This document shows positions 27,590 to 47,622 of a stretch of 64,000 nucleotides of DNA, piece after piece (the stretch's first letter is position 1; each line of letters opens with the position of its first letter). The position numbers were made by a program, and so were the translations under genes. Below the pieces are notes generated by a model, which saw only the letters and a list, made by a program, of their open reading frames with translations, searched no databases and had not been told where the DNA came from. Origin of the DNA: Aquitalea aquatilis (GTDB taxonomy: Bacteria > Pseudomonadota > Gammaproteobacteria > Burkholderiales > Chromobacteriaceae). Location: the NCBI RefSeq assembly GCF_005155025.1, contig NZ_CP039731.1, forward strand, positions 2,418,001-2,482,000, in the 5' to 3' direction.

Positions 27590-27797
27590 GCACCGCCAGG
27601 GAGGCTACTGAGCGACCGGCTGTTGCTGCAGGCTGGCCTGGCAGGATCGACCGGTCTGAAACCATGCCCCGCCTTGATTCAGGACGTCATCATCAAGCTG
27701 GGGCTGTGTTAACATCCCTTTCACTTTTTAGCGGCCGAGGCTGGCTGCGTCGTCCGGTGTGCTTGCTTCCAGATTGGCCCCCCTGAGTCCCTTGCCG

Positions 27798-29552
27798 ATG
27801 AAACATCATTTAGCGTCCCGCTCCGAGTTGTCCCAGGTCCTGCAAACCTTCAAGCAGACGTTTTACCAGCTGGGGGCCTTCAGTGCCGTGATCAATCTGC
27901 TGATGCTGCTGCCTTCCATCTACATGCTGCAGATCTACGACCGGGTTTTGCACAGCCGCAACGAAACCACGCTGCTGATGCTGACGCTGCTGATGCTGGG
28001 GCTGTACGGGCTGATGTCGGTGCTGGAACTGGTGCGCTTTTCGGTACTGATCCGGGTAGGCAACCGGCTGGACATGCAGCTGAATTTCCGGGTGTTCACC
28101 GCGGCCTTCGAGCGCAATCTGCGCAAGAACAATGGCAATGCCTCGCAGGCGCTGCATGACCTGACCAGCGTGCGGCAGTTTCTCACCGGCAACGGGCTGT
28201 TTGCTTTTTTCGATGCCCCGTGGGCGCCGATCTACCTCGCCGTCACCTTCATGTTTCACTGGATTCTCGGCCTGTTCGTGCTGGGAGGCATGATTATCCT
28301 GTGTGCGCTGGCCTGGCTGACCGAGCGTTCCACCCGCAAGCCGCTGGCCGAGGCCAATCAGGCCTCCATCGCGGCCGGCAACTACGCCAATAACAATTTG
28401 CGCAACGCCGAAGTGATCGAGGCCATGGGCATGCTGCCGGCCTTGCGCGAGCGCTGGTTCCTGTTTCAGAGCCGGGTGCTGGAAAAGCAGACCGAGGCTT
28501 CCGACAAGGCTGCCCGCATCGGTGCGCTGTCCAAGCTGGTGCGCCTGTCCCTGCAATCACTGGTACTGGCTGTCGGTGCCGTGCTGGCCATCCAGAATGA
28601 AATCTCCCCCGGCATGATGATTGCCGGTTCCATCCTGATGGGGCGGGCTTTGCAGCCGGTGGAAATGGCCATTGGTACCTGGAAGCAGCTCAACAGTGCG
28701 CGCGCGGCCTATCAGCGGCTGGAAGAGCTGCTGGCCGAATTCCCCGCCCGCATCAGCGGCATGAGTTTGCCGCGTCCGCAGGGAAGGGTGCAGGTGGAAG
28801 GCGTGGTGGCGGCCGCGCCCGGCAGTGGTGTACCGATTCTCAAGGGCATCAGTTTTGCCATCGAACATGGTGATATCGTTGGCGTGGTCGGCCCCAGCGC
28901 GGCTGGCAAATCTACCCTGGCGCGGCTGCTGGTGGGTATCTGGCCGGCGCAGTCGGGCAAGGTCAGGCTGGATGGTGCCGACATTTTCCAGTGGAACAAG
29001 GACGAGCTGGGGCCGCATATCGGCTATCTGCCGCAGGATGTCGAGTTGTTTGATGGCAGCATCGCCGAAAATATCGCCCGCTTTGGTGAGATAGATTCGG
29101 AGCGCGTCATCGAGGCAGCCAGCCGGGCCGGGGTGCACGAGATGATTCTGCACTTTGCCCAGGGCTACGATACCCGGCTGGGCGATGGTGGTCACCGGCT
29201 CTCCGGCGGCCAGAAACAGCGCATCGGCCTGGCCCGTGCCATCTATGCCAGCCCCGCTTTCGTGGTGCTGGATGAACCCAATTCCAATCTTGACGATGTC
29301 GGCGAACAGGCACTCATCCATACCGTGATGGACCTGAAGGCGCATGGCACTACCGTGGTGCTGATCACCCATCGCACCAGCATCCTCAATGCGGTGGACA
29401 AACTGCTGGTGATGCGCGAAGGCCAGCTGCATTTGTTCGGCCCGCGCGACCAGGTGTTGTATGCCCTGAGCCAGGCCGCGCAGCAGGCCTTGCAGCAGCA
29501 GGCGGCCATGCAGGGCCAGGCCGACCAGACTTCCGACGAGAACCATGCATGA
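27798..29552 (+). CDS. Type I secretion ABC transporter (PrtD/AprD family)
   Basis: A 584-aa inner-membrane ABC exporter, with transmembrane and ATPase domains fused. Hydrophobic segments occupy about 20-290. The nucleotide-binding domain has GPSAAGKST (Walker A, about 370), the signature LSGGQKQR, LDEPNSNLDD (Walker B) and the THR switch. There is no C39 peptidase or C39-like N-terminal domain, which fits the PrtD class that exports proteases, lipases and HasA. The ATG at 27798 gives MKHHLASRSEL; the ribosome binding site is poor. It overlaps the adaptor gene by 4 bp. The likely cargo is the calpain-like protease encoded convergently downstream. Confidence 0.93.
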   Translation: MKHHLASRSELSQVLQTFKQTFYQLGAFSAVINLLMLLPSIYMLQIYDRVLHSRNETTLLMLTLLMLGLYGLMSVLELVRFSVLIRVGNRLDMQLNFRVFTAAFERNLRKNNGNASQALHDLTSVRQFLTGNGLFAFFDAPWAPIYLAVTFMFHWILGLFVLGGMIILCALAWLTERSTRKPLAEANQASIAAGNYANNNLRNAEVIEAMGMLPALRERWFLFQSRVLEKQTEASDKAARIGALSKLVRLSLQSLVLAVGAVLAIQNEISPGMMIAGSILMGRALQPVEMAIGTWKQLNSARAAYQRLEELLAEFPARISGMSLPRPQGRVQVEGVVAAAPGSGVPILKGISFAIEHGDIVGVVGPSAAGKSTLARLLVGIWPAQSGKVRLDGADIFQWNKDELGPHIGYLPQDVELFDGSIAENIARFGEIDSERVIEAASRAGVHEMILHFAQGYDTRLGDGGHRLSGGQKQRIGLARAIYASPAFVVLDEPNSNLDDVGEQALIHTVMDLKAHGTTVVLITHRTSILNAVDKLLVMREGQLHLFGPRDQVLYALSQAAQQALQQQAAMQGQADQTSDENHA

Positions 29553-30922
29553 ACCTGTTCAAAAAACTGACACGCCAGGCCTCTGATCGCGCACAGACCC
29601 CGCCGGCCCAAGGTGCGGTCGAGCGCTTTGGCCGGGTGGATACCGACGACCAGCGCATTGGCCGCTGGGGCATGAAAATCGTTCTGGTCGGCTTTGGCGG
29701 CTTCCTGCTGTGGGCCGCACTGGCTCCGCTGGATGAAGGCGTTACCGCCAACGGCACGGTCATCGTCGCCAGCAATCGCCAGACCGTGCAGCACCTGACT
29801 GGCGGCAGCATCGAAAAGCTGCTGGTGGGTGAGGGGGACGTGGTGAAGAAGGGTCAGCCGCTGATCCAGCTCAACGACACCGAAGCCCGCGCACAAATGG
29901 GCAGCACGCTGGCGCAGTTCATCAGTGCCCGTGCCATCGAAGACCGGCTGCTGGCGGAGCGTGCCGGCCTGCCCACGCTGGTTTTCTCGGACGAGCTGAA
30001 CGCGCTGGCCAGCGATGCCCGTGTGGCAGAGGCCAAACAGCTGCAAACCCAGCTGTTCAATACCCGCCGCGACGGCTTGCGTAACGAACTGAAGGCGCAG
30101 GATGAAAACATCAACGGTCTGCAACAACAGCTGCACGGATTCCAGGGGGTAAAGGCAGCGCGAGCCGAACAGAGCAAGTGGCAGGACAAGGAGCTGGAAG
30201 GCATCCGCGAACTGGCGGCCGGTGGCTATGTGCCGAAGAACCGCCTGTATCAACTGGAGCGCGGGGCGGCCGAGCTGCGTGGCGAACTGGCTGACACCAT
30301 CGCCAATATCGGCCGTGTCCAGGACAGCATTGCCGAAACCAAGCTGCGCCGCATCGCGCGCCAGCAGGACTACCAGAAGGAAGTCGAGTCACAGCTTACC
30401 GACATCCAGAAAGAAACCGGTGCCTTGCGCGACCGGCTCACCGCCCAGCGCTATGTGGTGGCCAACAGCACTATTCGTGCGCCGATTGACGGCCTAGTGG
30501 CGGGGTTGAAAGTTCATACCATCGGCGGTGTGGTGCAGGCCGGCCAGGCGCTGATGGATGTGGTGCCTACCAGTCAGCCCTTGCTGATCGAAGCTGCCGT
30601 CGATCCGGCCATGAGCGCCAAGGTACGTAGCGGGCTGCCGGTGGATGTCACCTTCCCCGCGCTGAATCAGCAGACCACCCCGGTGATTCCCGGCGTGGTG
30701 GCTACCTTCTCGGCCGACCGGCTGCTGGATCCTAAATCCGGAATGCCCTACTACCTGGCGCAAGTCAAGGTCACCCCCGCCGGCATGAAGCTGCTGGGAG
30801 AGCAGCCAGTCAAGCCCGGCATGCCTGCCACCATCGTCATTCGCAGTGGTGAACGCACCATGCTGCGCTATCTGCTCAAGCCCGTCATGGATCGCATGAA
30901 TCTGGCATTCAAGGAGAGCTGA
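29549..30922 (+). CDS. HlyD-family type I secretion periplasmic adaptor (PrtE-like)
   Basis: A 457-aa membrane fusion protein. A short cytoplasmic N-terminus is followed by one membrane helix at about 45-67. Then come a beta-barrel/lipoyl segment beginning NGTVIVASNRQTVQHL, a long alpha-helical coiled-coil hairpin (about 120-300), the second lipoyl half (STIRAPIDGLV) and a C-terminal beta-barrel ending ERTMLRYLLKP. It links the ABC exporter to the outer-membrane channel. It overlaps the ABC gene (ATGA) and abuts the TolC-like gene, so the three form one operon. Confidence 0.93.
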   Translation: MNLFKKLTRQASDRAQTPPAQGAVERFGRVDTDDQRIGRWGMKIVLVGFGGFLLWAALAPLDEGVTANGTVIVASNRQTVQHLTGGSIEKLLVGEGDVVKKGQPLIQLNDTEARAQMGSTLAQFISARAIEDRLLAERAGLPTLVFSDELNALASDARVAEAKQLQTQLFNTRRDGLRNELKAQDENINGLQQQLHGFQGVKAARAEQSKWQDKELEGIRELAAGGYVPKNRLYQLERGAAELRGELADTIANIGRVQDSIAETKLRRIARQQDYQKEVESQLTDIQKETGALRDRLTAQRYVVANSTIRAPIDGLVAGLKVHTIGGVVQAGQALMDVVPTSQPLLIEAAVDPAMSAKVRSGLPVDVTFPALNQQTTPVIPGVVATFSADRLLDPKSGMPYYLAQVKVTPAGMKLLGEQPVKPGMPATIVIRSGERTMLRYLLKPVMDRMNLAFKES

Positions 30923-32281
30923 ATGGCCGCTCGCCGCACTCTGCGCCTTTCTGTCCTGCTGGCTTGCTATGCCATGCTGAGCCTGCCTGTAGCCAGCGGC
31001 TATGGCTTGCTGGAAGGGTTTCAGCTGGCGCGCCTCAATGATGCGCAATACCAGGCGGCTGCTGCCGAGCGCGAGGCGGGCGAGGCCAACAGGCCCATGA
31101 GCCGGGCGCAACTGCTGCCCACGCTGAACGCCAGCTTCAACCGCAGCAAGGTAACCGGTTCGGATACCGCGCCGGATTTCTTCGGTACGCTGAATACCTC
31201 GCCGCTCAAGTATATGAGCCAGGATGCGGCGATCCAGCTGCGTCAGCCCATTTTCAATTTGCAGCGCTGGGCCATGTATCAGCAGGGCAATGCCCGGGCT
31301 GATTACAGCCAGGCGATTTTCTCGCGCAAGGAGTACGAGCTGGCGGTGCGCTATCTGACCAGCTATCTGGGCCTGCTGCTATCGCAAAAGAACATCGCCT
31401 TGAGCGAGGCCAAGCTGCAGGCGCTCAGCGGTACACGCTTGCAGGCGCAAAAGCTGTTTGATCAGGGCGATGGCACCATCACCGATATCCACGATGCCGA
31501 GTCGCGCATGGCGCTGGCCGAAGCGGAGCTGATTGAAGCGCGCACGATGCAGGCCATTGCCGAGCGCAGTCTGTCGGCCATTACCGGCGAAATGCCCCAG
31601 CAACTGGCCGAGCCAGAGCCGGGGATCGTGCAGTACCTGGGTGTGACCGGGCAGTTGGCCGATTGGCGTGAACAGGCCTTGCAGCACAGCCCGGACATCC
31701 AGGCCGCGCAGATGAATGTGCGCATTGCCGAACAGGAGCACAAGAAAGCCCGTGCGGCCAATTATCCCAGTCTGGATCTAGTCGCCAGCAAGGACCGCTC
31801 CAGTGCCAGTTCCGTGTCCACCATCAATCAGCGCATTACCCAGAATGTGATCGGAGTCGAGCTGAGCGTGCCGCTGTTCAATGGCGGCTTCAATTCCGCC
31901 CAGATCACCCAGACCAGTGCGCTGTATCGCCAGGCACTGGCCGAACTGGACAATGCACGTACTCAGGTGGAGCTGGAAGTGACCAAGCAGTTTTATGGCA
32001 TCAGCAACGGTGTGCGCAAAGTGGCAGCCTTGCAAACGGCGGTGAGCGCCAGCGCGGAAACCGTCAAGGCCAGCAAGCTGGGGCTGGCTGCCGGCGTGAA
32101 AACCCTGACCGACATCCTCAATAGTGAAGAGCAGCTATATCAGGCAAAGCGCGATTTGCTGCTGGCGCAATACAACCAGCTGGTTAGCTGGATCTCGTTA
32201 CGCGCTGATTGCGGCATCCTGAGTCCGCAAGATCTGCTGCTGCTGGATCAGCACTTCAGCCACCAGGCTGCTGTGCGCTAG
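30923..32281 (+). CDS. TolC-family outer-membrane protein (PrtF-like)
   Basis: A 452-aa outer-membrane channel protein with an N-terminal Sec signal peptide (MAARRTLRLSVLLACYAML begins it). Two repeated outer-membrane-efflux halves show LRQPIFNLQRW near residue 108 and LSVPLFNGGFNSAQI near 315, the paired beta-hairpin entrances typical of TolC. It completes the type I secretion operon. It starts at the base after the adaptor stop. Two hairpins lie between its end and the convergent calpain gene. Confidence 0.93.
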   Translation: MAARRTLRLSVLLACYAMLSLPVASGYGLLEGFQLARLNDAQYQAAAAEREAGEANRPMSRAQLLPTLNASFNRSKVTGSDTAPDFFGTLNTSPLKYMSQDAAIQLRQPIFNLQRWAMYQQGNARADYSQAIFSRKEYELAVRYLTSYLGLLLSQKNIALSEAKLQALSGTRLQAQKLFDQGDGTITDIHDAESRMALAEAELIEARTMQAIAERSLSAITGEMPQQLAEPEPGIVQYLGVTGQLADWREQALQHSPDIQAAQMNVRIAEQEHKKARAANYPSLDLVASKDRSSASSVSTINQRITQNVIGVELSVPLFNGGFNSAQITQTSALYRQALAELDNARTQVELEVTKQFYGISNGVRKVAALQTAVSASAETVKASKLGLAAGVKTLTDILNSEEQLYQAKRDLLLAQYNQLVSWISLRADCGILSPQDLLLLDQHFSHQAAVR

Positions 32282-32464: not shown

Positions 32465-35212
32465 TTATACCAGATGATGCTCTGCCAGCGCGGCGGCGTT
32501 CATGTTGACACCCACCAGTGAAATGGCCGGTGCTTCGGCGCTGAGCAAAGGATGCGGCGAGGCAGCCACACCACCAATCGACAGTGAGAAGGTTTCACTG
32601 GCCGACAGGCCGGAAGTATCGGTGGCCTTGACGGTGATGTCGGCCGACTCAATCAGGCTGCCCATGGTTGCGACAAAGCTGTCGGTTTTGGGGTTGAAGG
32701 TAATCCAGCTGGGCAGCGCCTGGCCATTGGCCTGGCTTGCGCTATAGCTGAGGGTCTGTCCTTGCGGATCGATAAATGTGCCCTGCGGTACGCTGATATT
32801 GAGTGTGCCGTTGGCGTTGAACGTGATGCTTAGCGGCAGCGGGTTGACCACCGGCGCTTTCAGCGCGGTAGCCACATCATTGATGGTAAAGGTTTCCGAA
32901 GTCGACAGGCCGGCGCTGTCGGTGGCGGTCAATTTGACTAACAAGCTGCCTGCCGTGGTAGGTGCCGTGCCGGAGAAGGTTTCGGTCTGGGCGTTGAATG
33001 CCAGCCAGGACGGCAAGGCCTGGCCACTGCTCAGCGCCGCTTTGTAAGTCAGTGCCAGCCCTTGCGGATCGACAAAGGTATTGGACGGCAGGCTAATGCT
33101 GAACGCCTTGCCGGCATTGATGGTTTGCGTTGCCGTCTGCAGGTTGAGCGTGGGCGCGGCATAGCTGTCGTTCAGGGTGAAGGTTTCCGAGGTCGACAGG
33201 CCGGCCTGATTGCTGGCACTGACCAGCAGCGACAGCGTGGTATTGGCCGTCGGCGCGGTGCCGGAGAAGGTCTGGGTTTGTGCATTGAAGCTCAGCCAGG
33301 ACGGTAGTGCCGCGCCACTGGCCAGCTTGGCGGTATAGGCCAGGGTCTCGCCTTGCGGGTCGGTAAAGGTGCCGGCCGGCAGGGCGAAACTGAAGCTGTG
33401 GCCGGGGGTGACCAGTTGACCTGCAGTGGCTTTGGCCAGAATCGGTGCAAGGGCAGTGTCGGTGATGGAGAAGGTTTCCGACGCAGACAAACCTGCAGTA
33501 TCGGTAACCGTCACCAGCACTTGTGTGCTGCTGGAGGATACCGGCGTGGTACCGGACAGGGAGTTGGTCTGGGCGTTGAAAGTCAGCCAGGAGGGCAGTG
33601 CTTGCCCATTGCTCTGGGTTACCTTGTAGGTCAAGGCTTGGTTTTGCGGGTCGGTAAAGGCATTGGCCAGCGACAGCGAGAAGGCATGATTGGCCGCCAG
33701 GGTCTGATTGGCCGTCTGGTTGCTCAGGATGGGTGCAGCTGGTGTGACTGGCACCGTGCCGCCAACATTGTCGACGGTGATGGTGTCACCAGCGGCCAGC
33801 AAGGTGGCCAGGCTGACTTCGAAGGTGGTGTTCCAGTACTGGCCGGTTTGCGAACCCCAGGGGTTGCGGATCTGCAAGTAGCCATTGGCGGTGTCGATAC
33901 CGTAGATCGACATGGCATGGCCCGCCACCAGTTGCACCTTGCCGCCAGCATCGTAGCTCCAGGTGTAAGACGACAACACCAGATCGTCGCCGGCGGCCAG
34001 ATCGGCTTTCAGTGTGCCCAGCACACTGGCCGTGGTAATGCCGCTTTGCGAACCGGTGCCGGAGAGCGAAGCATTATAGGTACGGCACAGCCAGCTGGTG
34101 CCATTGGCGCAAAAATCGGTAATCTGCGAAGCGCCGGTGATGGCCTCCAGCGCATACTCGGGCAAGCCACCATTGCCGATGGCAGTAAAGCTGTTGCCGG
34201 TGTAGCTGTTGCCGGTGGTCACATTGATGGACTGCAACTGGGCATAGGCTTTTTCCAGCAGCGTGGCCCACATATTGCTGCCACTGTTACAGCCGGTTTG
34301 CAGCGTGTTGTTGACGGTAACGTACTCGGTGGAGCCCCGGTAGTGGAAGGCCACGCCATAGCTGTCGTTACCATTGGCCGTGATCATGTTCTTGATGATG
34401 TTGGGGTTGCGGCTGGCGACCTCGGCAATTGAGGACAAGAAGTAGCAGTCCCCCAGCTTGCCCTGATTGATATCATTGGCCGAGGGGCCGCTGGCCCCGA
34501 ACAGCGCCGCAGTGCTGGTGCTGTAGGTGATCTTGGAGGTAGAGCCACTCACGGTGACGGTCGACGATGGCAGGTCAGTGCCTTGCAGCCATTTGCCGTT
34601 CAGATAATTCAGTTGCGCCGCGCTGGAACCGGCAGCCAGATTACCCAGGCTGCTGCTGGCAGCACCACCACCAGTCCAGGATGCATTGGCGGCATTGCCG
34701 TTGACCAGTGCGTTCAGGGTGTACAAGTGATAGCCGGATGCGCTCTCGCCAACATTCAGGTTGGTGACAATCGTTTTCAGATCGTTGAACTGATTGGCCG
34801 ACAGCGTGGTTTTGTTGCTGGTCAGTTCAGCAGACAAATCAGTGACCAGTTTGGCCAGCCCGGCTTCGGTAACCGTTCCAGCCATGGCATTCATATCGGC
34901 CTTCAGCACCGAGTCCGACAGCGTGGCAATCCAGGATGGTGCGGTGGTACTGCCCGTTTTCACCATGCTGCCGGTGCTGCTTACCGTGCTGCTGCTGGCC
35001 AGCGCAGTGCTACTGGCGGCGCTTGCGCTCACCGTTGCTGCAGTCGGGCTGGTGTTGGGGGAGGGGCTAAACAGCGAAGCCAATGCCGACACGGACAGAT
35101 CGCCCAGCCCGAGAAAACCGGGGTCAGACAACAACCCTTCGGCGGCCTTGGTCATGGCCGCATTGGCGAGGAGCTGGTCTTGCTGGCGGGTCGAAGTATT
35201 CGAGGCGCTCAT
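32465..35212 (-). CDS. Secreted calpain-like (C2) cysteine protease with four cadherin/dystroglycan-type repeats
   Basis: A 915-aa protein without a Sec signal peptide. Residues 1-100 are Ser/Ala/Thr-rich and low complexity. A calpain-family catalytic domain spans about 240-485, with Cys256 in QGKLGDCYFLS, His432 in AGHAMSIYG and Asn450 in RNPWG: the complete Cys-His-Asn triad in canonical contexts. Four tandem repeats of about 95 residues follow (about 494-587, 589-682, 688-781, 786-879), each with DPQ, ALPSWL/I.FN, then GLS.SETF, as in CADG/He_PIG domains. No RTX nonapeptides are seen. The C-terminus ends LAEHHLV. The neighbouring T1SS operon and lack of a Sec signal make it the likely type I substrate. 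The start follows AGAAGGAAAG. A c-di-GMP riboswitch lies in the leader. Confidence 0.92.
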   Translation of the reverse strand: MSASNTSTRQQDQLLANAAMTKAAEGLLSDPGFLGLGDLSVSALASLFSPSPNTSPTAATVSASAASSTALASSSTVSSTGSMVKTGSTTAPSWIATLSDSVLKADMNAMAGTVTEAGLAKLVTDLSAELTSNKTTLSANQFNDLKTIVTNLNVGESASGYHLYTLNALVNGNAANASWTGGGAASSSLGNLAAGSSAAQLNYLNGKWLQGTDLPSSTVTVSGSTSKITYSTSTAALFGASGPSANDINQGKLGDCYFLSSIAEVASRNPNIIKNMITANGNDSYGVAFHYRGSTEYVTVNNTLQTGCNSGSNMWATLLEKAYAQLQSINVTTGNSYTGNSFTAIGNGGLPEYALEAITGASQITDFCANGTSWLCRTYNASLSGTGSQSGITTASVLGTLKADLAAGDDLVLSSYTWSYDAGGKVQLVAGHAMSIYGIDTANGYLQIRNPWGSQTGQYWNTTFEVSLATLLAAGDTITVDNVGGTVPVTPAAPILSNQTANQTLAANHAFSLSLANAFTDPQNQALTYKVTQSNGQALPSWLTFNAQTNSLSGTTPVSSSSTQVLVTVTDTAGLSASETFSITDTALAPILAKATAGQLVTPGHSFSFALPAGTFTDPQGETLAYTAKLASGAALPSWLSFNAQTQTFSGTAPTANTTLSLLVSASNQAGLSTSETFTLNDSYAAPTLNLQTATQTINAGKAFSISLPSNTFVDPQGLALTYKAALSSGQALPSWLAFNAQTETFSGTAPTTAGSLLVKLTATDSAGLSTSETFTINDVATALKAPVVNPLPLSITFNANGTLNISVPQGTFIDPQGQTLSYSASQANGQALPSWITFNPKTDSFVATMGSLIESADITVKATDTSGLSASETFSLSIGGVAASPHPLLSAEAPAISLVGVNMNAAALAEHHLV

Positions 35213-35234
35213 GGCTTTCCTTCTGAAGAGTAAG

Positions 35235-35247
35235 GCAAAGCTAAAGG
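35235..35247 (-). promoter_or_regulatory. Candidate switching strand of the riboswitch expression platform
   Basis: On the minus strand this 13-nt segment (CCTTTAGCTTTGC) is complementary, with one mismatch, to the conserved aptamer core at 35318-35330 (GCAAAACTAAAGG). It sits 22 nt upstream of the start codon, next to the ribosome binding site. Pairing would break the c-di-GMP pocket, so the two structures should be exclusive. Confidence 0.6.
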
Positions 35248-35278
35248 AGCGCTTGCAGCGGACACAGGGCGTGTTGCT

Positions 35279-35359
35279 GGCAACTGGCTGACATAAGCGG
35301 CCAAGCCGCCCGTAGTCCCTTTAGTTTTGCGTCGCCGGCTTTCACCGGTTTTGCCTATA
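35279..35359 (-). promoter_or_regulatory. Cyclic-di-GMP-I (GEMM) riboswitch aptamer
   Basis: Read on the minus strand: the closing helix pairs GGCAA (35355 side) with TTGCC (35279 side). P1b is ACCGG-TGAAA-GCCGG with a GNRA-type loop. Then comes the invariant GACGCAAA, then GGGACTA, a P2 hairpin GCGGC-TT-GGCCGC, and AGCCAGTTGCC matching the AGCCGGGTTGCC-like end of the family. Order, spacing and about 81-nt size fit GEMM-I. A TAAAAT -10-like element (35368-35373) would place the transcript start just ahead. It is the leader of the calpain-like protease gene, with the ATG 66 nt downstream. One deviation is A instead of G after GCAAA. Confidence 0.87.
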
Positions 35360-35541
35360 ACGGTCTAATTTTATGTGTGAAATTTCGTAAATGGAAAAGG
35401 AAATTTACACTTTGTATCTGATCCGCGACAGATACCCAGCAAACGATGAAGAGTGCTTCAAGCCAGTGCAGCAGACCGTATGCCAGCGTGCCTATTCCTG
35501 CCTGCCACCATGCAGGCTAGCTGCCGCGAGGGGCAAAAGCC

Positions 35542-35936: not shown

Positions 35937-36380
35937 TTATTCCGACCATTCAGGATGGTTTTCGGCCAGCCATGCCCGGGTGTGGGCCAGCAGGGCTGCA
36001 GCTTGCTGCAGGCAGGCGTCTAGGGCGCTATCTGCAATCGGGTCGCCCTGGTAGTCGTTCACATTGCGCTGCTTGCGCAAGGCATCCAGTACGATCACTG
36101 CCTTTGGCGGCAGATCCATGGTTTTCGGTAAACACTGGATCGCTGTCTGGTGATGGCCGGGCTTGCTGGTCGAGGTGCGGTAACCGCGCGCCAACAGGCC
36201 GACCATGGCGCATTGCATGATGGTCTTGTAGGCCGCATCAAAGCGGTTGTCAGCACTCAGGCCCGGCAAGGCTGCATCGGCCAGATTCCGCGCTGCCGCT
36301 GCCAGCAGTTTCTGGATGGCCGCTTTGTCTGCCGGCTGTCGCAGCAATTGGCCCGTTGCCATTAAATTATCCAGCGTCAT
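35937..36380 (-). CDS. HEPN-domain protein of a HEPN/nucleotidyltransferase pair
   Basis: A 147-aa all-helical protein of the HEPN superfamily. Regions RFDAAYKTIMQCAMVGLLA and GHHQTAIQCLP are typical of HEPN partners of MNT genes. The catalytic RNase motif R-x4-6-H is represented by R105-NVND-Y110, so the His is replaced by Tyr. The related toxin HepT carries RX4HXY and is AMPylated on its Tyr. The partner gene upstream overlaps it by 14 bp. It is either a toxin with a variant active site or a regulatory subunit. Confidence 0.8.
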   Translation of the reverse strand: MTLDNLMATGQLLRQPADKAAIQKLLAAAARNLADAALPGLSADNRFDAAYKTIMQCAMVGLLARGYRTSTSKPGHHQTAIQCLPKTMDLPPKAVIVLDALRKQRNVNDYQGDPIADSALDACLQQAAALLAHTRAWLAENHPEWSE

Positions 36381-36945
36381 GTATTGTTCCCAATAGCATC
36401 AAGTTTGGCCGCGTCAGCACATCACGGACAAAGTAGTCATCAGCGGCACGCATTTGCTGCCATTTCTCAGTGCTATACACCACGGGGTTGATCTCGCGCC
36501 CCAGCATGGCCTGGCAGGGGTACAGTGCCTCCACCACCTCGGCAAAGCCGACACGGCCCACCACCAGCACATCAATATCCGACTCGGCATGTGCCTCGCC
36601 CCGTGCCATGGAGCCAAATACCAGCGCCAGCTCGATCTGCCCGGCCAGCGGCTGCAAGGCATCACGCAAGGGGGTGGACAGGCCAACTGTCTTGCGGAAT
36701 AGCCCAGCCAGCTCGGGATACACCGGGTTGGCCACATTGGCCTGGTACAGCACCTGATTGCCCCGTGTACTGCGCAACAGCAAGCCACAGGCAGCAAGTT
36801 TCGCCAGTTCCCGGTGCAGTGAACCGGGCGAGCTGCCTGTCAGGCGGGCCAGCTCGCGCACATGCAGTGATTGTTCCGGGTGTAACAGCAGGCGGGCCAG
36901 CACACCCTGGCGCTGCGCACCAAACAGGGTTTCAAGCAAATCCAT
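36367..36945 (-). CDS. Nucleotidyltransferase (MNT) with N-terminal winged-helix DNA-binding domain
   Basis: A 192-aa protein. Residues about 12-68 form an ArsR-like winged helix (HVRELARLTGSSPGSLHREL). Residues about 100-190 are a minimal nucleotidyltransferase with the GSX10DXD motif GS111...D123-x-D125 (GSMARGEAHAESDIDVLV). MntA-type antitoxins AMPylate a cognate HEPN toxin; here the fused DNA-binding domain suggests autoregulation. The ATG at 36945 gives MDLLETLFGA; the frame stays open 10 codons upstream. Operator-like repeats lie directly upstream. It is paired with the overlapping HEPN gene. Confidence 0.85.
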   Translation of the reverse strand: MDLLETLFGAQRQGVLARLLLHPEQSLHVRELARLTGSSPGSLHRELAKLAACGLLLRSTRGNQVLYQANVANPVYPELAGLFRKTVGLSTPLRDALQPLAGQIELALVFGSMARGEAHAESDIDVLVVGRVGFAEVVEALYPCQAMLGREINPVVYSTEKWQQMRAADDYFVRDVLTRPNLMLLGTIHDAG

Positions 36946-36958
36946 ATGTAACTCTTTT

Positions 36959-37066
36959 GGCTTCAATTGTAGCAATATTGGCTACATTAAAGCCGGCAAT
37001 GACCCGACTCAAGCAAAATCAATGGTTGCAGCTAAAAAGGCTGCAATTGAAGCAAAAAAGGCTACA
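36959..37066 (-). promoter_or_regulatory. Operator-like repeats upstream of the MNT/HEPN genes
   Basis: A 29-bp sequence occurs twice, at 36959-36987 and 37038-37066, with 24 of 29 positions equal. The first copy contains the inverted repeat TGTAGC-N7-GCTACA (36968-36973 / 36981-36986). The second keeps the GGCTACAT half. They flank the likely promoter of the MNT gene; the second also overlaps the stop of the preceding GIY-YIG gene. The winged-helix part of the MNT protein is the natural candidate to bind here. Confidence 0.6.
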
Positions 37067-37982
37067 TATCGACTAGCTGGGCATCCTGCCAATCGGTATA
37101 GCTTTGCCCGCTGTCCTTCAGCTTCCACTCGATACGGCCATTGGCATTGCGTGCCAGCACGATGGCGGCGGCAGCACTGGGGCTGTTGAAGGGACAATCC
37201 TCGCTGAAAACCAGCATGCCATTGTCAGTGGGCACCAGCTTCTTGGCCTCTTGCAGCGACTGATGCAGCTTTTTGTAATTGACCCATTTCTCGTTTTCCC
37301 ATTGGCCGCGAGCTAATGAGCCTTTACGCACAATGAACTCGCCATCGATTTCCTGTGCGGTGGCGCTGATACCTTGCCTGGTCGTGATGGAGAACACCGG
37401 GGACTGCACGCTGGAGTCCTGTTCGCTTGGCTGCGTTGTGGCCGCTTGCGCCGGCACGGCACGCAGCAAATCCAGCCCCAGCGCTGGCAGCACGATTTGC
37501 AATTGTTCAATCAGGTAGTGCATGTCGGCCATGTCGGCTTCCGGCAAGACGCCATATTCGTTTTGCTTGCCTTTGACATTGGCCACAGACAAACGCCCGG
37601 CATGGCTGGCAATCGAAATCAGCTTGCTTTCCACATAGCGCAAATGGCCTTTGGTGAGGTTGGCATCCTTGCTGGTAAAGATGAACATGCGATCCCAGAA
37701 GTCCTTACCACCGGTGGACTCCGGCTTGTTGTGCTGGGCCAGCCGTTCTCCTACCACTTCCGATTCGCCGATATACGCCTGGCGGCTGTCAGAGTCGGCA
37801 GGATTGTCGCCAACCAGCACATACAAGCCAGGCCGGCTGGCTTCTGCCAGCTTGAGCACATCCGCCAGCCGGGAGCGCGGGGCGCTGATCACATGGCCGG
37901 TCCAGTTGATGATTTCAGCCGTGATGATGCCACCTGGCGTACCGTCCACCAGAAACATGCGGATGGATTTGCCGTGGTTCAC
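37062..37982 (-). CDS. GIY-YIG nuclease-family protein with C-terminal DUF4357
   Basis: A 306-aa cytoplasmic protein. The N-terminal part contains a GIY-YIG-like core (GLYVLVGDN and, about 15 residues on, AYIGESEVVGERLAQH), followed by FWDRMFIFTSKDANLTKGHLRYVE, which carries the expected Arg/Glu region. Residues about 255-300 match DUF4357 (SPSAAAAIVLARNANGRIEW). The family occurs in mobile and restriction-like contexts; function is unproven. It overlaps the upstream YggL-like gene by 4 bp (ATGA) and ends in the operator repeats of the MNT gene. Confidence 0.82.
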   Translation of the reverse strand: MNHGKSIRMFLVDGTPGGIITAEIINWTGHVISAPRSRLADVLKLAEASRPGLYVLVGDNPADSDSRQAYIGESEVVGERLAQHNKPESTGGKDFWDRMFIFTSKDANLTKGHLRYVESKLISIASHAGRLSVANVKGKQNEYGVLPEADMADMHYLIEQLQIVLPALGLDLLRAVPAQAATTQPSEQDSSVQSPVFSITTRQGISATAQEIDGEFIVRKGSLARGQWENEKWVNYKKLHQSLQEAKKLVPTDNGMLVFSEDCPFNSPSAAAAIVLARNANGRIEWKLKDSGQSYTDWQDAQLVDM

Positions 37983-38347
37983 ACCAGATCCATCCAGCTA
38001 TCGTCATGCCAGGCGTCGAGCAATTCGCTGACCTCGGCCTTCGCCACGGCAGGGTAGCGACTCACCCAGGCCTGCAGGGCGTCGCGTTGGGTCAGGGTCA
38101 CGCTGCCGCTGGCATAGGTGGTGATGAAGCCGCTGCTCTCATCACCGCCGTAAGTCAGGCCCAAGGCTTCCACCTTTTCAATCAGCGCCTCGACATAGCT
38201 GTCTCGTGCAGCTCCTTTCAGTGGGGTGACAAATTGCACCGACAAGCTAAAGCCAAGCTCCTGAAATTCGCCTGCATGGTGCTTTTTGCGCTGGCGACGG
38301 TTCCAGTTGGCCAGACGACGAGCGGAAGGGATGATGATGTTGTTCAT
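37979..38347 (-). CDS. YggL-like (DUF469) protein
   Basis: A 122-aa basic protein with RRQRKKHHAGEFQELGFSL near residue 17, the hallmark of YggL/DUF469, and a C-terminal VSELLDAWHDDSW. E. coli YggL associates with the 50S ribosomal subunit. The copy here has an extended N-terminus and sits in an accessory island, translationally coupled to a GIY-YIG protein, so a diverged role is likely. The ATG start is supported by the ACAAGGTAAACC ribosome-binding stretch upstream. Confidence 0.75.
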   Translation of the reverse strand: MNNIIIPSARRLANWNRRQRKKHHAGEFQELGFSLSVQFVTPLKGAARDSYVEALIEKVEALGLTYGGDESSGFITTYASGSVTLTQRDALQAWVSRYPAVAKAEVSELLDAWHDDSWMDLV

Positions 38348-47081: not shown

Positions 47082-47157
<76 letters not shown>

Positions 47158-47213
47158 GGTGTTGCTTGACTTGCCATGCGGTCTGGAGCCGACATCACAA
47201 GCTGACTGTAGTG

Positions 47214-47289
<76 letters not shown>

Positions 47290-47343
47290 GGTAATGCTGG
47301 ACTCCTGATAACCGTCAGTGTGTCATCAAAAGCTTACTGTCTG

Positions 47344-47419
<76 letters not shown>

Positions 47420-47441
47420 ACGGGTACTACGTCTGGTACTC

Positions 47442-47517
47442 TGGCGTCCCCACGGGGAGTCGAACCCCGGTTACCGCCGTGAAAGGGCGATGTCCTAGGC
47501 CACTAGACGATGGGGAC
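47442..47517 (-). tRNA. tRNA-Glu (TTC)
   Basis: A 76-nt cloverleaf: acceptor GTCCCCA / TGGGGAC, anticodon TTC in CCCTTTCACGG, T-arm GGGGTTCGAACCCC, CCA encoded. Second gene of the array in transcription order. Confidence 0.97.
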
Positions 47518-47546
47518 CCTAAGAACTTTATCCGACTGGAACGGTT

Positions 47547-47622
<76 letters not shown>

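Follow-up and report, generated by a model that had tools for sequence, protein, structure and literature searches.

A c-di-GMP-I riboswitch predicted to act as a translational OFF switch for a candidate type I-exported calpain in Aquitalea

A c-di-GMP-I (GEMM-I) riboswitch precedes a gene for a calpain-family cysteine protease in Aquitalea aquatilis, and the protease gene is convergent with a type I secretion operon. From the predicted structures of the leader, we propose that the riboswitch is probably a translational OFF switch for a type I-exported calpain. We argue this from two mutually exclusive structures, from the pattern of Shine-Dalgarno masking, and from an anti-aptamer structure that is lower in energy than the aptamer state without ligand. 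Coordinates are those of the window, which is the whole 64-kb stretch of DNA that was analysed.

The aptamer and the calpain gene

The following features were assigned on the minus strand:

35276..35365, minus strand: c-di-GMP-I (GEMM-I) riboswitch aptamer, a covariance match to RF01051, present in 8 of 10 genus genomes
35368..35397, minus strand: putative sigma-70-type promoter (TTTCCA - 18 - TAAAAT) directly before the aptamer, from a consensus scan
32465..35212, minus strand: calpain-family (C2) cysteine protease of 915 aa with four He_PIG stretches (Pfam), ATG at 35212

The original prediction placed a GEMM-I riboswitch at 35279-35359 and named Infernal with the Rfam c-di-GMP-I model as its check. 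When the whole window was searched with cmscan (Rfam 15), RF01051 matched the minus strand at 35365..35276 with 66.6 bits (E 7.6e-11). This match encloses the predicted interval, exceeds the gathering cut-off of 35 bits, and aligns with model positions 1-87 of 87. It is the single RF01051 match found across the 4.36 Mb of this genome, and none of 14 control genomes searched in the same way had one. By model score, the RNA is an RF01051 riboswitch, and ligand binding is predicted.

GGCAAA, the GACGCAAA core, and a GAAA-capped hairpin are all present in the Rfam alignment, and these columns are invariant in the eight Aquitalea leaders. c-di-GMP-I riboswitches carry a tetraloop receptor on their second stem. 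In that receptor region, the eight leaders show CUAC..UAUG or CAUG in place of the CUAA..UAUG of the model. One anatomical detail of the prediction, a closing helix between GGCAA and the terminal TTGCC, was rejected because the Rfam alignment pairs those letters differently: GGCAA pairs through its GC with that of GACGC, and the AACT that follows GACGCAA pairs with the terminal AGTT.

The aptamer ends 63 nt before the calpain open reading frame, on the sense strand. Seven further aptamers occupy the same place in other Aquitalea (60.5-67.5 bits across 8 of 10 genus genomes), so that a riboswitch lies upstream of the calpain ATG in the sense orientation in 8/8 calpain-bearing genomes. The aptamer core is near-invariant among the eight species, and its flanks have diverged. 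A promoter consensus scan of the A. aquatilis leader found one site (0.2 were expected in shuffles). The two other leaders that were scanned each have a site with a spacer of 18 at this place, and a TARAAT box is at that position in 8/8 leaders. This is weak evidence that the putative promoter at 35368..35397 is functional.

The downstream gene had been described as encoding a calpain-family protease with adhesion-type repeats, and Pfam agrees. Peptidase_C2 (PF00648) matched with 60.4 bits (E 1.9e-16, cut-off 23.8) and the He_PIG Ig-like domains with E 7.4e-56 in four stretches; protein and aptamer are conserved together in 8/8 Aquitalea genomes with either one. The predicted triad is Cys256, His432, and Asn450, and C/H/N are invariant in all 15 aligned sequences, including that of A. 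aquatilis. Calpains made up 19 of the 20 PDB sequence matches at E up to 1, and the remaining one was dystroglycan, at 0.13. An AlphaFold2 model of residues 95-485 (pLDDT 77.8) was used with Foldseek, and 40/40 hits at E<=0.001 were calpain cores, the best with E 3.5e-12 and a moderate TM score (0.48 by query, 0.60 by target). Therefore, by domain match and model, the protein is a C2 peptidase with a calpain fold, and its proteolytic activity is predicted. Calpains of the genus are 910 to 1110 aa long and differ in the He_PIG repeat stretch.

Bacterial calpains are described as rare in the available text of PMC4631099. According to that text, they lack the calcium sites of animal calpains, may be secreted or membrane-associated, occur only once per bacterium, and are maintained by an evolutionary pressure that is called unknown. 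One genome in our phylum sample (G565) holds two calpain-domain genes (L100 and L105), contrary to that count of one per bacterium. The A. aquatilis protein has the C2 core, Cys-His-Asn triad, and calpain fold in common with the proteins covered there, and Aquitalea adds a riboswitch leader and a type I secretion operon. The main text of PMC4631099 has no mention of Aquitalea, riboswitch, or type I secretion.

Co-occurrence with a type I secretion operon

Three genes on the plus strand converge with the calpain gene:

27759..29552, plus strand: type I secretion ABC transporter (ABC_tran, ABC_membrane), listed start GTG at 27759, maybe ATG at 27798
29549..30922, plus strand: HlyD-family membrane fusion protein (HlyD_3), in 8/8 loci, partial (275 aa) in genome G006
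30923..32281, plus strand: TolC-type outer membrane protein (OEP), in 8/8 loci, convergent with the calpain gene

The listed GTG start of the ABC gene is probably too far upstream, because two genomes (G003 and G005; loci L047 and L048) have an in-frame TAG at the place of residue 6, before Met14, and the matches in four other genomes begin at residues 12-14, around Met14.

The genus set had 10 genomes, with Aquitalea aquatica, A. magnusonii, A. palustris, A. pelogenes, and Aquitalea sp. LB_tupeE as close relatives. The riboswitch was found in eight, the calpain in the same eight, and a close ABC ortholog (86-100% identity) in the same eight only. The other two, G008 and G009, lack all three, and their best ABC matches are paralogs at about 30%. 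G009 is complete. G008 is 61% complete, so its absences are weak evidence. The riboswitch-calpain unit is convergent with the TolC, HlyD, and ABC genes in 8/8 loci. Beside it lies rlmD in 8/8, and a chemotaxis gene is on the other flank in six of the eight stretches, truncated at a contig end in one of the six. In G009, the same flanking genes (tRNA, MCP/chemotaxis gene, and rlmD) enclose other genes, with no match to the calpain, ABC, HlyD, or TolC genes. By their co-occurrence, convergence, and joint absence, the three parts (riboswitch, calpain, and pump) behave like a single module.

The stretch from the riboswitch to rlmD (35937-38347) is variable, because its small genes are mostly unmatched in the other loci: a DUF4357 gene and its neighbour were matched in A. 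aquatica only, and the other two in none of the seven other loci. Elsewhere in the window, a tandem tRNA cluster at 47082-47622 contains four tRNA-Ala(GGC) and one tRNA-Glu.

We extended the analysis to wider samples. In the family, a calpain was found in 9/61 genomes and GEMM-I in 11/61, and both occurred together only in the eight Aquitalea. A calpain was found in 1 of 369 genomes of the class sample (A. aquatilis itself) and in 6 of 398 of the phylum sample at E<=0.001, four of them over the cut-off, A. aquatilis included. Homologs elsewhere include those of Rhodoblastus (L041) and Telmatospirillum (L042). No RF01051 match above the gathering score was found in the stretches examined at calpain loci L035, L041, L042, L065, L100, L101, L102, L105, and L108-L111, the last four of which cover the L100, L105, L101, and L102 loci with longer stretches. 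Seven loci outside Aquitalea (L041, L042, L065, and L108-L111) were compared for export genes. At L065 and L111, ABC and HlyD genes lie no more than a few kb away and are only 25-27% identical to those of Aquitalea. No ABC match was found at the other five (L041, L042, and L108-L110).

Secretion of the calpain is a candidate property that rests on the adjoining type I secretion operon. A crude hydropathy scan found no evident signal peptide and no strongly hydrophobic N-terminus in 8/8 Aquitalea calpains. The RTX motif GGxGxD was also absent from all eight, and therefore the calpain is not an RTX protein. In the genus alignment, its C-terminus has a conserved AP-ISLVG followed by a variable tail. 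The calpain might instead be cytoplasmic, with the operon serving another cargo. The absence of an evident Sec signal and of an RTX motif fits this, as do the five of seven loci outside Aquitalea that have no ABC match. Even so, the ABC gene and the calpain are present or absent jointly in 10/10 genus genomes and adjacent in 8/8, loci L065 and L111 are likewise near ABC/HlyD genes, and He_PIG repeats are common in surface proteins. We therefore regard a cytoplasmic calpain as improbable and export by the adjacent pump as the better candidate.

Another part of the A. aquatilis genome (L192:2993-15585, at about 3.78 Mb) has a second ABC/HlyD pair, next to which lies the gene for an RTX protein of 2758 aa that contains He_PIG and matches Lipase_3 weakly. 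This RTX protein and the calpain are 41% identical over part of its He_PIG region.

Alternative structures in the leader and the direction of control

The following features of the leader bear on the direction of control, about which the original prediction made no claim:

35318..35330, minus strand: aptamer core strand GCAAAACTAAAGG, which can form the anti-aptamer helix with 35235-35247
35235..35247, minus strand: switching strand CCTTTAGCTTTGC, which can pair either with the aptamer core or partly with the region of the ribosome-binding site
35205..35252, minus strand: predicted hairpin masking the Shine-Dalgarno sequence and start codon, outer stem GCGCTC...GAGCGC
35216..35222, minus strand: Shine-Dalgarno sequence AAGGAAA, starting 10 nt before the ATG; AAGGAAA in 8/8 leaders

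The linker from the end of GTTGCC to the ATG is 60-66 nt long in the eight leaders. In the predicted anti-aptamer helix, the linker sequence CCUUURGnUUUGY pairs with GCAAAaCUAAAGG in the core of the aptamer. The 12 pairs are conserved in 8/8 leaders (96/96 cells paired), two of them being kept by wobble. No compensatory double changes were found in this helix or in the ribosome-binding-site hairpin among the eight leaders. The anti-aptamer helix has no covariation because its aptamer strand is invariant, and its support is conservation.

With the aptamer core as query, the helix was reached by 0-2 of 1000 dinucleotide shuffles per linker in the eight leaders; the core was chosen because it is the ligand site, and this choice, the more favourable one, was made after the whole-duplex result and the alignment. 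When the query was the whole aptamer, 2-38 of 300 shuffles reached the best ungapped helix, which in three leaders (L003, L004, and L007) was a different one. The total duplex energy of aptamer and linker was ordinary in 8/8, being reached by 59 to 494 of 1000 shuffles. We dropped whole-leader duplex energy as a switch test because it gave no signal in any of the eight leaders.

The hairpin that would mask the ribosome-binding site had 87.1% of 116 cells paired across the eight leaders in the register of the A. aquatilis leader. Compared with shuffles, there was a clear excess in L001, L002, L006, and L008, a borderline one in L005 and L007, and no excess in G002 (L003) or G004 (L004).

We compared two constrained folds of each leader. 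The openness of the Shine-Dalgarno sequence with aptamer pairs imposed and with the anti-aptamer helix imposed was 0.01/0.57, 0.02/0.57, 0.39/0.80, 0.39/0.67, 0.44/0.58, 0.17/0.71, 0.43/0.67, and 0.17/0.42, where the aptamer-state constraint forbids conflicting pairs, does not enforce every aptamer pair, and includes no ligand energy. The Shine-Dalgarno sequence was thus less open in the aptamer state in 8/8 leaders. Openness of the AUG was in the predicted direction in only 4/8. Ligand-free, the anti-aptamer state was 1.6-8.1 kcal/mol better than the aptamer state in the eight leaders, and in five (L002, L004, L005, L006, and L008) the unconstrained minimum equalled its energy to one decimal. 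In the free fold of the A. aquatilis leader, the Shine-Dalgarno sequence is mostly paired (0.10 unpaired). Therefore, the ligand-free state may not be fully ON.

An intrinsic terminator was rejected as the expression platform, because a scan of three leaders (those of A. aquatilis, L061, and L058) gave no terminator-like site on the strand of the gene. The L061 leader has one such site, which is antisense.

Together, the leader suggests an OFF switch. At high c-di-GMP, the aptamer would fold and retain the core strand (35330-35318). The strand CCUUUAGCUUUGC (35247-35235), further downstream, would then be available to mask the Shine-Dalgarno sequence and start codon, and little calpain would be made from the masked ribosome site. 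At low c-di-GMP, the core strand would pair with CCUUUAGCUUUGC, the ribosome site would open, and calpain would be made. It would then leave via the adjacent ABC-HlyD-TolC pump and might cut surface, matrix, or foreign proteins, most plausibly in detachment or foraging.

The opposite sign, an ON switch in which c-di-GMP raises calpain and the protease serves sessile growth (matrix maturation or surface-protein processing), seems to us rather unlikely. It has points in its favour: class I switches of either sign exist, the A. aquatilis Shine-Dalgarno sequence is masked even without a constraint, and AUG openness is mixed. The available text of PMC6366702 describes Bc2 of B. thuringiensis as ON, two V. 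cholerae switches as responding oppositely, and all seven functional class I switches of C. difficile as OFF, and it states that direction is not transferable between species. Against the ON reading are the lower openness of the Shine-Dalgarno sequence in the aptamer-forced state in all eight leaders and a conserved alternative helix that uses the aptamer core. That helix also bears on a further possibility, that a real aptamer acts mainly on transcript fate, by Rho-dependent termination or decay, and not by masking the ribosome site. A linker of 60-66 nt, with no terminator-like gene-strand site in three leaders, would suit such control, which we nonetheless judge improbable because the linker has a conserved block complementary to the aptamer core and partly also to the Shine-Dalgarno region. 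Finally, the off-consensus letters in the receptor region (CUAC for CUAA) might point to a chance resemblance or to a decayed, non-functional riboswitch. With a score of 66.6 bits (E 7.6e-11) and a near-invariant core in eight species whose flanks have diverged, this is very hard to credit. A translational OFF switch is therefore the reading that we carry forward.

Relation to known systems

As a riboswitch, the aptamer matches the full RF01051 model; what sets it apart is its target gene, a calpain. The original prediction knew of no GEMM switch described before a bacterial calpain, and the literature is in line with this. We found no openly licensed PMC paper that combines calpain, c-di-GMP, and riboswitch, none that combines Aquitalea and riboswitch, and none on a studied bacterial calpain. 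A wider search of openly licensed PMC papers had no riboswitch-controlled calpain among the matches listed.

The prediction had also presented extracellular proteolysis as a new direct output of c-di-GMP. This was overstated, given a precedent in C. difficile and the endopeptidase genes described below. The available text of PMC6366702 and PMC11477304 describes zmpI/PPEP-1 as a secreted protease that is negatively regulated by a class I c-di-GMP riboswitch and releases two adhesins, both c-di-GMP-activated. Common to the two systems is a class I c-di-GMP riboswitch before a protease gene, secretion being a candidate property in Aquitalea. PPEP-1 is a Gram-positive zinc metalloprotease under transcriptional control, whereas Aquitalea has a C2 cysteine protease, type I export genes, and predicted translational control. 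Therefore, the Aquitalea calpain is not a member of the PPEP-1 family.

We also looked for riboswitch-protease pairs in the class sample, in which 67 of the 369 genomes have GEMM-I matches, A. aquatilis included. We examined 110 of the 116 GEMM-I sites, leaving out that of A. aquatilis, one over the cut-off, and four under it. An open reading frame of >=50 aa was found downstream of 105/110 (28/30 and 77/80), the choice being mechanical (the longest near the aptamer). Two repeats (L127 and L168) were dropped, and 103 were scanned. Among the Pfam matches listed, at least 8 of the 103 have endopeptidase domains: S8 (L079, L086, L087, and one A3 member), C1 (L088 and one A3 member), M12B (L091), and trypsin (one A4 member). 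M23, counted apart from the endopeptidases, was in at least three (L070 and two of A2). Other domains downstream of GEMM-I included Response_reg, PilZ, and PagP, each in at least three members (L070-L191). None of the other class-sample GEMM-I sites precedes a calpain at that sensitivity, because the sole C2 match in the 369 genomes is that of A. aquatilis.

In genome G059 of the same family, a GEMM-I aptamer (60.6 bits) lies upstream of a gene for a subtilase (S8) whose start resembles a signal peptide (L068:7169-9575). By eye, the C-terminus of this subtilase is autotransporter-like, and Pfam names S8 only. The pairing of riboswitch and protease thus recurs with unrelated proteases, as the G059 subtilase and the class-sample endopeptidases indicate. 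Along with PPEP-1, this suggests that proteases of unrelated families (C2, S8, C1, M12B, and trypsin-like) have come under the direct control of c-di-GMP through RNA. A riboswitch before a secreted protease has a precedent in PPEP-1, and the calpain target and the export genes appear to be new.

LapG is a BTLCP (PF06035) that is controlled at the protein level by LapD. The A. aquatilis calpain differs in having no PF06035 match in Pfam. A. aquatilis also has separate genes for LapG, LapD, and a 1986-aa Big_13-repeat protein side by side (L193:7198-15952, at about 847-856 kb), and LapG is in 10/10 genus genomes, unlike the calpain. LapD-LapG is described as an inside-out proteolysis system in the available text of PMC3032545, and surface proteolysis at low c-di-GMP would be the same outcome here. 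The calpain belongs to the family of neither PPEP-1 nor LapG; functionally, it may resemble both.

More tentatively, the locus could be a dispersal or attack module that is gained or lost as a unit. Falling c-di-GMP would lead directly to calpain release via its own pump, and Aquitalea would shave off adhesins or matrix, whether its own or those of a neighbour or a plant, in parallel to the protein-based LapD-LapG system. We see this as possible and hold it well short of probable. The plant setting comes from the available text of PMC8770550, a Tn-seq study of the duckweed isolate A. magnusonii H3, and not from the A. aquatilis genome; in the main text of that study, the terms calpain, peptidase, and secretion are absent.

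In this freshwater genus, one compact locus links a calpain, a protease rare in bacteria, to a known signal, a known type of switch, and a candidate exporter, and the role of the calpain is therefore directly testable. If the dispersal or attack module is real, a bacterial calpain would have a defined signal as its input, and LapG would have a counterpart under RNA control.
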